A stretch of DNA of 64,000 nucleotides, taken from the NCBI RefSeq assembly GCF_000214355.1, contig NC_015577.1, positions 2,657,389 to 2,721,388 of the forward strand, written 5' to 3'. The translations under genes were made by a program, and so were the position numbers. The DNA is from Leadbettera azotonutricia ZAS-9 (GTDB taxonomy: Bacteria > Spirochaetota > Spirochaetia > Treponematales > Breznakiellaceae). Shown piece after piece: positions 16,974 to 21,976 of this stretch (position 1 is its first letter; every line of letters starts with the position of its first letter). The notes beneath the pieces are model-generated. The model saw only the letters and a list, made by a program, of their open reading frames with translations, did not search any database and was not told where the DNA came from.

Positions 16974-18788
16974 TTATTCGTCCTTGGATTTCAGCACTGC
17001 CAGGAACGCGCTTTGCGGCAGCTCGACATCCCCTACCATCTTCATGCGCTTCTTGCCTTCTTTTTGTTTTTCCAGGAGCTTGCGCTTGCGGCTGATGTCG
17101 CCGCCGTAGCATTTGGCCAAGACGTCCTTGCGCAGGGCATTCACGGTTTCGCGGGCTATGACCTGGCTGCCTATGGCGCCCTGTATGGGGATCTTGAACT
17201 GCTGGCGGGGGATTTCTTCCTGGAGCCGTTCGCAGACCATGCGGGCCCTTGCCTGGGCATTGTCCCTGAACACGAGCTGGGACAGGGCGTCCACAGCCTT
17301 GCCGTTGAGGAGTATGTCGAGCTTTACCAGATCCGTTTTCTTGTATTCAGTGATGTCATAATCGAAAGAGGCATAGCCCCGGCTTATGCTTTTTAGGCGA
17401 TCGTAAAAATCGAAGAGCACTTCCGCAAGGGGCATATTATAGACGAGTTCCACGCGCTTCTCGTCCAGGTAGGTCATGTTTGTCTGCACTCCCCGCTTCT
17501 CATTGCACAAGGTCATGATGTTCCCGACAAAGGTTGTGGGGGTAATGATGGATGCGCGAATGTAGGGTTCATCGGCGCTTTCGACACGGCCATCGCCGGG
17601 GTAATCGGCAGGATTGTCCACCATGATTTCTTCGGCTGTTGGCCCGTTCCTCACGTACACCTTGTATTTAACCGAAGGGGCGGTGAAGATCACGCTCTGA
17701 TCGAATTCCCTTTCGAGCCGTTCCTGTATCACTTCCAGGTGGAGAAGGCCCAAAAAGCCGCAGCGGAAGCCGAAGCCCAGGGCGGCGGAAGAATCTTTTT
17801 CGTACACCAGGGAGGCATCGTTGAGCTTGAGCTTTTCGATGCTGGTTTTGAGTTCTTCATAATCGTTTGAATCCACAGGGTATATGGACGAGAACACCAC
17901 GGGCTTGATTTCGCGGAAACCCGGAAGGGCTTTTTCGCAGGGATTTTCCGCGCCTGTTACCGTGTCGCCTACCCTGACATCGCTCACAGTCCTGACCCCG
18001 GCGATAAAGTAGCCTACATCGCCGGCTTTCAGCTCTTCAGTCTCGACGAGCGCAAGCTTGAAGACGCCGACAGTCTCAACATCGTACTCGGTGCCGTTGT
18101 ACATAAAGCGTATCTTCATCCCCTTTTTAAGGGTTCCGTCAAAAAGGCGCACATGCACAACCACGCCCCTGTAGGGGTCGTAATGGCAGTCGAAGATAAG
18201 TGCCCGCAGGGGGGCATCCACTTTTCCCGCAGGCGGGGGGAAGCGTTTCACGATGGCCTCGAAAAGCTCGTCCACCCCCTGCCCGGTGCGGGCGGAGACC
18301 AGGAGGGCCTCCGAAGAATCAAGCCCTAAGTCTTTGTCGATCTGCTTCCTGGCCATGTTGATGTCCGCGGCCTGCATGTCTATCTTGTTGATCACTGGGA
18401 CGATTTCGAGATTGTGCTCCAGGGCAAGGTACATGTTGGAGAGGGTCTGGGCCTGCACGCCTTGGGTTGCGTCCACCAGGAGCAGTGCCCCTTCGCAGGA
18501 ATTGATTGCCCTGGACACCTCGTAGGTAAAGTCCACATGCCCCGGAGTATCTACCAGGTTGAGTTCGTATTCATGGCCGTCTGCCGCTGTATAGGGGATA
18601 GTGACTGCCTGGCTCTTGATGGTGATGCCCCGTTCCCGCTCTATGTCCATGTTGTCCAGGATCTGATCCTGAAAATCGCGGTCTTCTACAAGATGGCCTT
18701 TTTGGATGAGCCGGTCGGCAAGGGTGGACTTTCCGTGATCGATGTGGGCAATGATGCAGAAATTGCGTATGTATTGTATCTCGGCCAT
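16974..18788 (-). CDS. lepA: Elongation factor 4 (LepA), ribosome back-translocase GTPase
   Basis: A 604-aa translational GTPase. The G1 region AHIDHGKSTLADR, the G2/G3 region ERGITIKSQ and DTPGHVDFTYEV, and the G4 motif NKID are all intact. The LepA-specific C-terminal domain follows, with QAVIGxxVIARE-like SQVIARETVNALRKDV and the CYGGDISRKRKLLEKQKEGKKRMK stretch (the latter ending before residue 590). Length is typical of LepA. It lies two bases after the stop of the FlhB/FlhA-like gene, so the two are probably cotranscribed. Confidence 0.96.
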   Translation of the reverse strand: MAEIQYIRNFCIIAHIDHGKSTLADRLIQKGHLVEDRDFQDQILDNMDIERERGITIKSQAVTIPYTAADGHEYELNLVDTPGHVDFTYEVSRAINSCEGALLLVDATQGVQAQTLSNMYLALEHNLEIVPVINKIDMQAADINMARKQIDKDLGLDSSEALLVSARTGQGVDELFEAIVKRFPPPAGKVDAPLRALIFDCHYDPYRGVVVHVRLFDGTLKKGMKIRFMYNGTEYDVETVGVFKLALVETEELKAGDVGYFIAGVRTVSDVRVGDTVTGAENPCEKALPGFREIKPVVFSSIYPVDSNDYEELKTSIEKLKLNDASLVYEKDSSAALGFGFRCGFLGLLHLEVIQERLEREFDQSVIFTAPSVKYKVYVRNGPTAEEIMVDNPADYPGDGRVESADEPYIRASIITPTTFVGNIMTLCNEKRGVQTNMTYLDEKRVELVYNMPLAEVLFDFYDRLKSISRGYASFDYDITEYKKTDLVKLDILLNGKAVDALSQLVFRDNAQARARMVCERLQEEIPRQQFKIPIQGAIGSQVIARETVNALRKDVLAKCYGGDISRKRKLLEKQKEGKKRMKMVGDVELPQSAFLAVLKSKDE

Positions 18789-18790
18789 GC

Positions 18791-20119
18791 TTAAAAGGCG
18801 CCCTCTTCAAGCCTGATTTCTCCTACAGGCTCGACATTGATGTCCGGGGGAATTTCGATATAGGACAGAACCGCCAGGTTGGGGAATTTTTTCCGGGTAA
18901 TTTCCTTGAGCCAGCTCCGGGCCATGGGGGAGCAGAGTATAATGGGCGGAAGGCCCTTGTCTTCCATGCCTTTAATCGCAGGGGAAAAAATATCGAGCCA
19001 GTCATCGCTTGCGGGGGTTTCGTTTTCTTTGGGCAGAAGCCTGTCGGCAAAACTCTGTTCCAGGTTCGTTTCCAGGGTAAGGACCCTGAGCACCTGCCCA
19101 TCCCCTGCATAGTCAAGGCAAATCTGCCGTTTTAACGACTGGCGTATCTGCTCGATGATCACATCGTTGGGGGCAGGGCCAAAACTGCCCCAGTCGGCCA
19201 GGGTTTCGAGTATGGCCGGCATGTGGCGTATGGAAACCTGCTCGCTTAAGAGACCCCTCAATATGTCCCGGATGCTCCCAAGGCTTAGAAGGTTTTTCAC
19301 TTCCCCCGTAACCACAGGGTACTTGGCTTCGGCTGTGTCCAGGATTTGCTGGACTTCGTCGCGGCCCAAAAAGTCGGGCGCCCGCTTCAGGGCGATTTCG
19401 TCCACATGGCGGACAATTGCGGCTGCGACGATTCTTGCGGCTCCGTGGATTAGCTCGGCATTAAAGCCCAGGCCATCGGAACCATACCAGTCCAGGTCGA
19501 GCTGCCTTCTCCCTGCTTCAAGTCCCTTGAGCAGTATGCGGTATTCGCCCCGATTTAGGCGGGGGTTCCTGGAGACCCGGATGCGGGGAACCACAAAACC
19601 CATAAGGCGGCAAAGCCGTTTCCTGATTTTATTTAAAGGCGCTGCCAGGGAATCTGCCATAGCATCAGCGTCCCCCTGGGGAAAGCCTTCAATCCCCAGA
19701 AAATCCCAGAGGGTTTGGCCCATTTCTATAGTCAGAAGCCGGGGCCTCTTTATTGGCTTAATCCTTCTGTTCCTGACCGACAGGGGAACCTTCTTCAACT
19801 TCAACCTTGAAAAGGCGGCCATGATTTCACGATAGCAAAGCTCCGGGACAGGCTGGCCAAGTTTGCCGTAGCTAAAGAGGTTGCGGGCAAGCATGACATT
19901 ATCGATGATGGGCAAGCCCGTCTTTTTTGCAAAGCCCGAGATTGCTTCCGCCATGGGGCCCTGCTCCATGACAATGATAAGGGGGGCGAACATAAAATCG
20001 TCATCATAGCGCAGCCCGGTGATATAGCCTTCGGAGCTTGCCACAAAGGCGTCGCACGCGCTTATATAAGGTTCAAGGGCCTTCAGAGTTTCTTGTGTGC
20101 TGTCCAGTTCGTCACCCAT
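18791..20119 (-). CDS. Soluble FlhB-C/FlhA-C fusion protein without membrane domains
   Basis: A 442-aa protein with no membrane segment. Residues about 20-108 match the cytoplasmic domain of the flagellar export switch FlhB: the GLRYDD strand, AKKTGLPIIDNVMLARNL and GQPVPELCYREIMAAF. The autocleavage motif NPTH is replaced by SSEG at residues 28-31. Residues about 175-420 match the cytoplasmic domain of FlhA: PRIRVSRNPRLNRGEYRILLKG, the LGRDEVQQILD block at 251-261, and LLSEQVSIRHMPAILETLAD. True FlhA and FlhB are polytopic membrane proteins, so this is a detached fusion of their two regulatory domains. A role in controlling flagellar export at the sorting platform is inferred. The ATG follows GGAGG. 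It sits between the HtrA gene and lepA. Confidence 0.8.
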   Translation of the reverse strand: MGDELDSTQETLKALEPYISACDAFVASSEGYITGLRYDDDFMFAPLIIVMEQGPMAEAISGFAKKTGLPIIDNVMLARNLFSYGKLGQPVPELCYREIMAAFSRLKLKKVPLSVRNRRIKPIKRPRLLTIEMGQTLWDFLGIEGFPQGDADAMADSLAAPLNKIRKRLCRLMGFVVPRIRVSRNPRLNRGEYRILLKGLEAGRRQLDLDWYGSDGLGFNAELIHGAARIVAAAIVRHVDEIALKRAPDFLGRDEVQQILDTAEAKYPVVTGEVKNLLSLGSIRDILRGLLSEQVSIRHMPAILETLADWGSFGPAPNDVIIEQIRQSLKRQICLDYAGDGQVLRVLTLETNLEQSFADRLLPKENETPASDDWLDIFSPAIKGMEDKGLPPIILCSPMARSWLKEITRKKFPNLAVLSYIEIPPDINVEPVGEIRLEEGAF

Positions 20120-20131
20120 AGAACCTCCAGT

Positions 20132-21976
20132 CTACAATGTATCAGGTGAATCCAGCAAGGCGGGGAGCTGCATGCTGGTTTCCATGTAGCCCAGCCGGCG
20201 TTTTTTTACATTGATTTCCATAAGGGCATACCCTTCATTTTCCAGTATCCTGAACCCCCTGATGGAAACAGGATCGTTCTCCGAAAGCCCCGCTTCGTCA
20301 GCCACCGAGCCCCGGACTACCCTCTTAATCTGGTAAGACGCAAAGGTTGAACCGTTTGCAGCGGTAGTCAGGATAAGGCCGAAAAGGGGGGCGGCTATGC
20401 GCTCTTTGCTGTCCTTTTTGGCGGCCTCTGCCAGGGGGATTTCGGGCCTGGCCGTCACCTGGATGAGCATCGGCTTCACGTTCCCTTCCGAATCGGCAAT
20501 CTCCATGGTCACCAATTCCCCGGGCCTCAGGGGGAAAAGCAGATCCTGCAGGGTTGGTATCAAGGTACCCTGGGGGGCGCTTGCGGCAATGCCGTTGATG
20601 GATTTAATGACGGAACCTTCTTTGATCTGCTGATCCGAAGCAGGGGTTGAAGGGGCTACATAGATAATTTCGGCGCCGGCGGTGTTTTCGCTCACCGAAA
20701 GCCCCAGCCAGGGGCGCTCGGCCTTGCCCCCTGCAATCATGGCCGGCAGGGCTGCTGCCAGCCTTTCCGCAGGGACCGCGAAATTAAGGCCTGGGTACTG
20801 TTCTATGCCGGCAAAAACTATGCCCACAAGGCGACCAGTCATGTCGATTACAGGCCCTCCCGAATTCCCGTGGTTCACTGCGGCGTCAATCTGGATCACA
20901 TCCCCAATTTGCAGGTAACGGCGGCCAAGAGCCGAAACTATGCCCTGGGTTACAGTTTTTTCAAGGCCCCCAGGGGAACCTATAGCATAGATTGTATCCC
21001 CCACGTTGGGGATGACCCTGTCCACCACCGAATAGATGTACTCGGGTGTAAATTCGGCCTTTATCAGGGCAAGATCCATGGCCTTGTCCCAGCCTACCAC
21101 TTTGGCCGGAATGCGGGCGCTGGCTGAATCCCCCATACGTATGAACATACGGGAATAGCCCTCGTATTTGGGATCCACTTCGCTGGCTATTACATGGTAA
21201 TTGGTGATAAGGAAGCCCGAGGCATCCACAAAAAAGGCCGATCCCAGCACCCGGTCAGGCACGCCCCTGCCCCGGGTTATACGGTAGCCTCGATCAACCC
21301 AGACTGTTGCCACTCCCTTGATCATATCCTGGGGAAGATCGCGGCCTTCTGCATAGGCACGGAGTTCGGAGGGGACAGTATCATTGGCATTAATGATGCT
21401 TAAAAAGAAAGCCGCTGTGCGGCGCTGCCTGGCAGCCACTGCTTTTTCGAGGAAGAGGAGGATATCCTCGTATTCCAGGGGCTTAAGTTCATGGGACCTC
21501 ACGGCAGCCAAAAAGGCGGGAAGCATGTTCCCCTCTTCAAGCTGCTGTTTGGCATATTCCAGGACCAGGTCGGGCTCGTCTCCCGTGTTTTCCACGGAGA
21601 TGCCCAGGCTCGAAAGAGATCGCGCCAGGGAGGCAGCATCGGCCCATCGTTTTTCCTGGATTGCCTTGATCTGGGAAGCTTTAAGGTTCCCGGAAGCTTC
21701 TTCCCTAAGGCTGGCCAGCCTCTCCTGAATTTCCGGATCTTCCCCCTCGGGGTTTACGCTTCCCGGGCCGTAGATTGATTTATATACTTCGAGAAGATGT
21801 ATTGCCCTGGCAGGATCGCTGGAAGCGAATTTAGCCATATCGTCCAGCCTGAAGGCGCTTACCGATTTAGGCTGGACAAGGCGGCGTTCAGCCTGGGCCT
21901 GGGTAGTACAGGAAAGCAGGATAGCGCACAGGGCCAATATAAAAGCGGGAGCCCATTTTAAATTCTTAAAAGCCAT
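20132..21976 (-). CDS. HtrA/DegP-like serine protease lipoprotein with PDZ domains
   Basis: A 614-aa exported protease. The signal peptide ends in the lipobox ILLSC with Cys23, so it is predicted to be lipid-anchored. Residues about 40-210 are helical, TPR-like (paired-helix pattern around LLEVYKSIYG and AYAEGR). The trypsin-like core has the full triad: His261 in NYHV, Asp301 in DLALI and Ser372 in GNSGGP. Two PDZ-like segments follow (about 420-505 and 530-605). Such proteases remove misfolded envelope proteins. The N-terminal helical extension before the protease core is longer than in DegP. It lies 12 bases before the FlhB/FlhA-like gene. Confidence 0.88.
   Translation of the reverse strand: MAFKNLKWAPAFILALCAILLSCTTQAQAERRLVQPKSVSAFRLDDMAKFASSDPARAIHLLEVYKSIYGPGSVNPEGEDPEIQERLASLREEASGNLKASQIKAIQEKRWADAASLARSLSSLGISVENTGDEPDLVLEYAKQQLEEGNMLPAFLAAVRSHELKPLEYEDILLFLEKAVAARQRRTAAFFLSIINANDTVPSELRAYAEGRDLPQDMIKGVATVWVDRGYRITRGRGVPDRVLGSAFFVDASGFLITNYHVIASEVDPKYEGYSRMFIRMGDSASARIPAKVVGWDKAMDLALIKAEFTPEYIYSVVDRVIPNVGDTIYAIGSPGGLEKTVTQGIVSALGRRYLQIGDVIQIDAAVNHGNSGGPVIDMTGRLVGIVFAGIEQYPGLNFAVPAERLAAALPAMIAGGKAERPWLGLSVSENTAGAEIIYVAPSTPASDQQIKEGSVIKSINGIAASAPQGTLIPTLQDLLFPLRPGELVTMEIADSEGNVKPMLIQVTARPEIPLAEAAKKDSKERIAAPLFGLILTTAANGSTFASYQIKRVVRGSVADEAGLSENDPVSIRGFRILENEGYALMEINVKKRRLGYMETSMQLPALLDSPDTL

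Follow-up and report, generated by a model that had tools for sequence, protein, structure and literature searches.

The described proteins that lie nearest to the one reported here are the FlhX-like FlhB paralogues (FlhB-related small proteins, TIGR00789), which have an FlhB-C-like domain without a membrane part, and a natural FliR-FlhB fusion mentioned for Clostridium (PMC7064499). In FlhB, residues A286/P287/A341/L344 make up the hydrophobic early-substrate pocket (PMC9307174), and in Salmonella the cleaved C-terminal domain of FlhB has been argued to be an inhibitory lock that maintains the early mode up to its own ejection (PMC13344023). In FlhA, residues D456, F459 and T490 belong to the chaperone-docking dimple (PMC8166844), GYXLI is the switch motif (PMC10965912), and D3 together with D1 takes up the linker of the neighbouring subunit in FlhA rings (PMC8166844, PMC10965912).

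The window, which is the whole 64,000-nucleotide stretch of DNA that was analysed, covers C1:2657389-2721388 of a single-contig genome of 3,855,671 bases. It contains a gene, starting with ATG, whose product joins an FlhB-like to an FlhA-like cytoplasmic domain (Table 1). In the Pfam search, Bac_export_2 (FlhB, PF01312) matches residues 30-101 of the fusion (profile 259-330, E 1.5e-11) and FHIPEP (FlhA, PF00771) matches residues 233-427 together with a weaker earlier stretch (E 5.2e-51), both above the curated cut-offs; only FHIPEP profile positions 350-406 and 455-656 are covered, and the transmembrane FHIPEP domain is not reached. A transmembrane segment is absent, the maximum mean hydropathy over 19 aa being 1.27, against 3.1 for host FlhA. 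The NCBIfam models for FlhA, FlhB and FlhB_rel give scores far under their cut-offs, namely 173.2 bits vs 772.1 (TIGR01398), 39.6 vs 349.25 (TIGR00328) and 28.7 vs 117.35 (TIGR00789), as expected since the protein is partial and rearranged. We did not class the fusion with FlhB, FlhA or FlhX, because it lacks defining features of each; it differs from FlhX also in being joined to FlhA-C, and a small FlhX-like gene of about 85-96 aa, without an FlhA part, lies elsewhere in the same genome (C1:3727568).

An AlphaFold2 model made from the seven orthologues (pLDDT 75.7, pTM 0.47) consists of two folded parts with a low-confidence stretch, residues 109-125, between them. Compared with PDB structures, residues 15-109 superpose on the uncleavable CT091/YscU 3t7y (Z 16.0, rmsd 1.8 A, 94 aa) and residues 14-108 on EscU N262D 3bzs (248-341; Z 15.5, rmsd 1.7 A), and residues 125-437 match FlhA-C (3mix, Z 19.8; 6ch1 and 3a5i, Z 19.2-19.3). 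On FlhA-C the D1, D3 and D4 folds are all found (Z 18-20), but the rmsd is about 10-12 A over ~290 residues; we take this for a shift of the subdomains against one another, and how the model arranges them is not to be relied on. A preliminary description of this gene had proposed a joined FlhB-C and FlhA-C with no membrane segment, and profiles, predicted folds and hydropathy bear this out, with the amendment that the FlhA-C part is not the whole domain, its D2 core being missing. The profile and structure checks proposed there find both the FlhA and the FlhB models matching and the predicted domains superposing on FlhB/SctU-C and FlhA-C. The genome search that had been set as a further test finds separate full-length flhA and flhB (792 and 352 bits) away from the fusion, as a complete pair at 2306655-2309815 whose surroundings we read as a flagellar operon; the genome also encodes FliS and the hook-length domain of FliK.

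Table 1. Features of the fusion gene, its product and its neighbours (positions in the window)
Feature	Position	Strand	Basis or remark
FlhB-C/FlhA-C fusion gene	18791..20119	(-)	442 aa, whole ORF; Pfam, AlphaFold2/PDB, orthologues at the same site in 6 more genomes
GGAGG ribosome-binding site, 4 nt upstream of the ATG	20124..20128	(-)	direct reading
FlhB cytoplasmic-domain fold, residues 14-109, uncleaved topology	19793..20080	(-)	PF01312; matches FlhB/SctU-C including uncleavable mutants
SSEG, residues 28-31, in place of the autocleavage motif NPTH	20027..20038	(-)	alignments
A45-P46 = FlhB A286-P287, half of the early-substrate pocket	19982..19987	(-)	alignment
M100...F103 = FlhB A341...L344, other half of the pocket	19811..19822	(-)	register from extending the alignment by hand
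Disordered basic linker, residues ~107-126	19742..19801	(-)	AlphaFold2 model, charge count
FlhA-C D1-like region, residues 127-245; lowest conservation of the folded parts, degraded GYXLI	19385..19741	(-)	alignment, structure match
Residues 212-233, where the FlhA D2 core is missing	19421..19486	(-)	alignment with host FlhA
FlhA-C D3, residues 246-335	19115..19384	(-)	alignment, conservation
FlhA-C D4, residues 336-438	18806..19114	(-)	Pfam, alignment, structure match
HtrA/Do-type trypsin-PDZ protein, upstream neighbour, conserved context	20132..21976	(-)	Pfam
lepA (EF4), downstream neighbour, conserved context	16974..18788	(-)	Pfam

Compared with FlhB/SctU (PF01312/TIGR00328), the fusion keeps the C-terminal fold and the early-substrate pocket residues but has neither the transmembrane half nor the cleavage motif. 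Residues S28-S29-E30-G31 align to N269-P270-T271-H272 of Salmonella FlhB and the structural alignment with EscU agrees, so that the replacement of NPTH by SSEG, as first read from the sequence, is correctly placed. NPTH is absent from all seven fusions found in this study, and the six orthologues differ from SSEG, with no replacement that is conserved; the full-length FlhB of the window genome has NPTH intact. The residues of the putative pocket are largely kept in all seven: P46 is invariant and the position of A286 is A, L or V, and in the hand-extended register position 341 is M, A, V or S and position 344 is F or L.

Compared with FlhA (PF00771), the D1, D3 and D4 folds and the D3 motifs are retained, but the transmembrane half, the D2 core and the dimple are gone and GYXLI is degraded, its G being kept and its L mostly kept. 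Where the fusion has residues 212-233, host FlhA has about 50 residues that include DPAFGLPA (D456/F459), the D2 segment in host FlhA being GEKTKDPAFGLPALW. By Salmonella FlhA numbering (query residue 1 = 365) the host D is 456, the F is 459 and the T is 490; in the alignment, with positions taken from this numbering, the D2 segment with D456/F459 is missing from 7/7 fusions and T490 is replaced. Conservation is inverted: D3 is the most conserved part of the fusions and alone exceeds its counterpart in host FlhA in constraint (pairwise identity averaging 0.78 among the seven fusions vs 0.72 among the seven host proteins), with D4 at 0.53 vs 0.64 and D1 at 0.41 vs 0.84 for host D1+D2. The linker net charge (residues 105-128) is +11 in the window fusion and +6 to +11 in the orthologues, against -1 to -3 for the linker ahead of host FlhA-C, a reversal of sign in every fusion. 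The loss of D2, the kept pocket, the reversed linker charge and the inverted conservation with D3 at its top do not appear in the preliminary description.

That D3, a ring-contact part, is the most conserved and exceeds host D3 in constraint, and that the chaperone dock is missing, would suit a capping or poisoning subunit, in which D3/D4 enters the host FlhA-C ring, blocks assembly or chaperone docking and limits the number of active gates. However, D1, likewise a ring contact, is the least conserved part, and both GYXLI and the FlhA linker are degraded, and we consider such a role unlikely. It is also doubtful, judging from the residues, that the fusion joins FlhA rings as a normal member, because GYXLI and the FlhA linker, which stabilise FlhA rings, are not conserved in the fusions.

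The host FlhA of all seven carriers (e.g. L037:8617-10746, minus strand) has a D3 loop insertion of several residues, which is missing from most relatives and from the fusions. We set aside the idea that this insertion is a partner change peculiar to the carriers, as the host FlhA of the sister genome G008 has it too; a search of G008, which is 74% complete, gave no match to htrA.

The fusion occurs in 7/200 genomes of the family, many of them incomplete, and these belong to five genera: the window genome and the metagenome-assembled genomes (MAGs) G024, G031, G034, G220, G221 and G222. With so few carriers, flagella in the family do not depend on it, which counts against a role at the export gate. 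A phylum sample of 393 genomes contained no further case, and a scan of the GTDB collection returned the same six MAGs (Treponema sp.) followed by ordinary FlhA. From their isolate codes (Emb289P4bin7, Cc175_bin57, Nm470_bin77, Lab288P1bin11, Th196P3bin120 and Emb289P1bin105) and from the termite-gut habitat of the Breznakiellaceae (PMC13067680), our reading is that the six are termite-gut bins. Full flhA and flhB genes are present in the carriers, the flhB of G221 being split across two contig ends.

In all seven carriers the fusion lies between an htrA-like gene and lepA; in the window genome the htrA-like stop is 12 nt before the fusion ATG and lepA starts 2 nt past the fusion stop. The gene order is obgE, nadD, lytR, rsfS, GHMP kinase, rplY, tilS-like, ftsH, TPR, htrA, fusion, lepA, and a consensus scan for promoters and terminators gave none clearly above chance. 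As htrA is directly beside lepA in the relatives G020, G007 and G018, and further out in G057 and G054, while unrelated genes separate the two in G033, G019 and G030, the fusion was inserted into a conserved housekeeping junction. It sits in a housekeeping gene cluster or operon and not in a flagellar one, which also counts against such a role. The suggestion in the preliminary description that the protein is a decoy or regulator at the export gate is partly supported: the predicted soluble, non-cleavable architecture in seven genomes, beside full FlhA and FlhB, agrees with it, the location does not, and it stays the leading reading of the sequences.

The same location, with lepA and htrA so close and other ribosome and proteostasis genes around, would fit a protein that has left the flagellum for proteostasis or translation control in the htrA-lepA cluster, its linker binding RNA, ribosome or membrane and its folds serving as scaffolds. 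The basic charge of the linker (+6 to +11) points the same way, as do two orthologues (L039:15234-17084, plus strand; L041:1066-2892, minus strand) with an extra N-terminal domain of ~170 aa, which in a low-depth model has a weak winged-helix resemblance (Z about 9). Against this, the conserved FlhB pocket and FlhA-like D3 are hard to explain without flagellar partners, and the htrA-lepA position may simply be an insertion site; we find it an improbable alternative. The N-terminal extension had no Pfam match and is confined to those 2/200 family genomes.

The fusion gene is under purifying selection: pairwise dN is 0.27-0.53, dS ranges from 1.7 to saturated, and the reading frames are open in 7/7 fusions. 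The lost cleavage motif and docking site, and a long stem branch of about 1.8-2.8 changes per site, are what a decaying, functionless remnant of a second flhB-flhA pair would display. Yet seven intact frames over five genera with dN well under dS, a D3 more conserved than in working FlhA, a retained ribosome-binding site, and a main split in the fusion tree that matches host FlhA make a remnant very improbable, and we rejected the pseudogene reading on the open frames, the low dN and the conserved D3. That two genes were joined merely by an error of assembly or annotation can be dismissed almost outright: the window genome is a single contig, six separately assembled MAGs have the same architecture at the same site, and nothing was found in favour of it.

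In a tree of the FlhA-C part the fusions form one clade (100/100) within the family (99/99), and the main split of this fusion clade, three genomes of one genus vs the other four, matches a host FlhA clade (99/93); with the fusion tree following host FlhA in this split, there is no sign of a horizontal source. A fusion in the MAG G061 branches with the seven (97/94), with host FlhA elsewhere, a placement in which long-branch attraction is possible. In an earlier tree, which lacked G061, the fusions fell outside the family at low support, a position that we treated as a long-branch effect. The AU test rejects neither a host origin (p 0.20), as by simple duplication of the host's own flhA, nor an origin from the derived clade (p 0.49), and the parent gene of the fusion may be of either kind. 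Two complete flhB-flhA pairs of different lineages are present in G021 (contigs C61 and C52; L045, L046); a second copy of the pair therefore does occur in the family.

Other rearranged gate genes were observed in MAGs. The G061 fusion (L158:1601-3412, plus strand), a second kind that is likewise soluble, has two tandem FlhB-C-like repeats without NPTH and a complete FlhA-C with intact D2 (DPAFGLPA), and is flanked by ORFs of BspA-type LRR and DUF4116-like repeats (names given by eye); this bin, which is 71% complete, yielded no further FlhA. In G060 (L177:5432-6490, minus strand) an N-terminal stretch as in the G061 fusion is followed by an FlhB-C domain and TPR repeats. Contig C5 of G220, rich in DUF4116-like repeats, carries a stand-alone FlhA transmembrane half of 272 aa (L175:5581-6396, minus strand) and a TPR plus FlhB-C protein of 414 aa (L176:5260-6501, minus strand).

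We hypothesize, with a confidence that stops a little short of even, that a duplicated flhB-flhA gave rise to the fusion and that this protein is a soluble regulator, a switch module kept in early mode for good, which would act in trans on the export gate. A duplicated pair, adjacent and with flhB upstream, would have lost both membrane parts. The uncleaved FlhB-C would hold the pocket for rod/hook-type substrates, and without the D2 dimple filament-type chaperone complexes could not be taken in the known way; the conserved D3, together with D4, may bind the usual readers of FlhA D3/D4, whether adjacent FlhA-C subunits or soluble parts of the export machinery. Overall, early substrates would be buffered, or gates biased or blocked against late export, which would amount to dose control of the hook-to-filament switch or of how many gates are active. 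In relation to the Salmonella lock, an uncleavable copy tied to FlhA D3/D4 might act as a buffer for early substrates, reinforce the lock or fill contact sites of FlhA. The resemblance to the Salmonella locks, Fluke (Flk) and FlhB-CCD, is offered as a works-like analogy only, in that all might hold the gate in early mode (PMC13344023); FlhB-CCD arises by cleavage of full-length FlhB, whereas the fusion is encoded by a gene of its own and lacks the cleavage motif.

The domains and folds described here are known; what appears to be new is a natural soluble fusion with such a pattern of loss and retention. As the preliminary description had supposed, no natural FlhB-C/FlhA-C soluble fusion was found in the open literature searched, subscription journals lying largely outside the search. 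The clostridial FliR-FlhB protein is, like it, a natural fusion of two export-gate proteins including FlhB, but joins membrane proteins, whereas here cytoplasmic domains are joined without membrane parts and beside intact gate genes.

It has long been asked how the export gate stays in early mode and later switches, and for this the fusion offers a natural test protein: the switch domains are here fused off the membrane and stripped of late-mode features, and if the fusion binds early substrates or FlhA rings, the contacts that matter would be isolated. That termite-gut spirochaetes use a membrane-free switch copy locked in early mode, for control in trans of the exported substrates or of the number of active gates, is possible, though we hold it only tentatively; if true, such a copy would be a new type of export-gate regulator made from the gate's own switch domains. 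The fusion also points to a way of controlling periplasmic flagella that is peculiar to one lineage of abundant gut symbionts.
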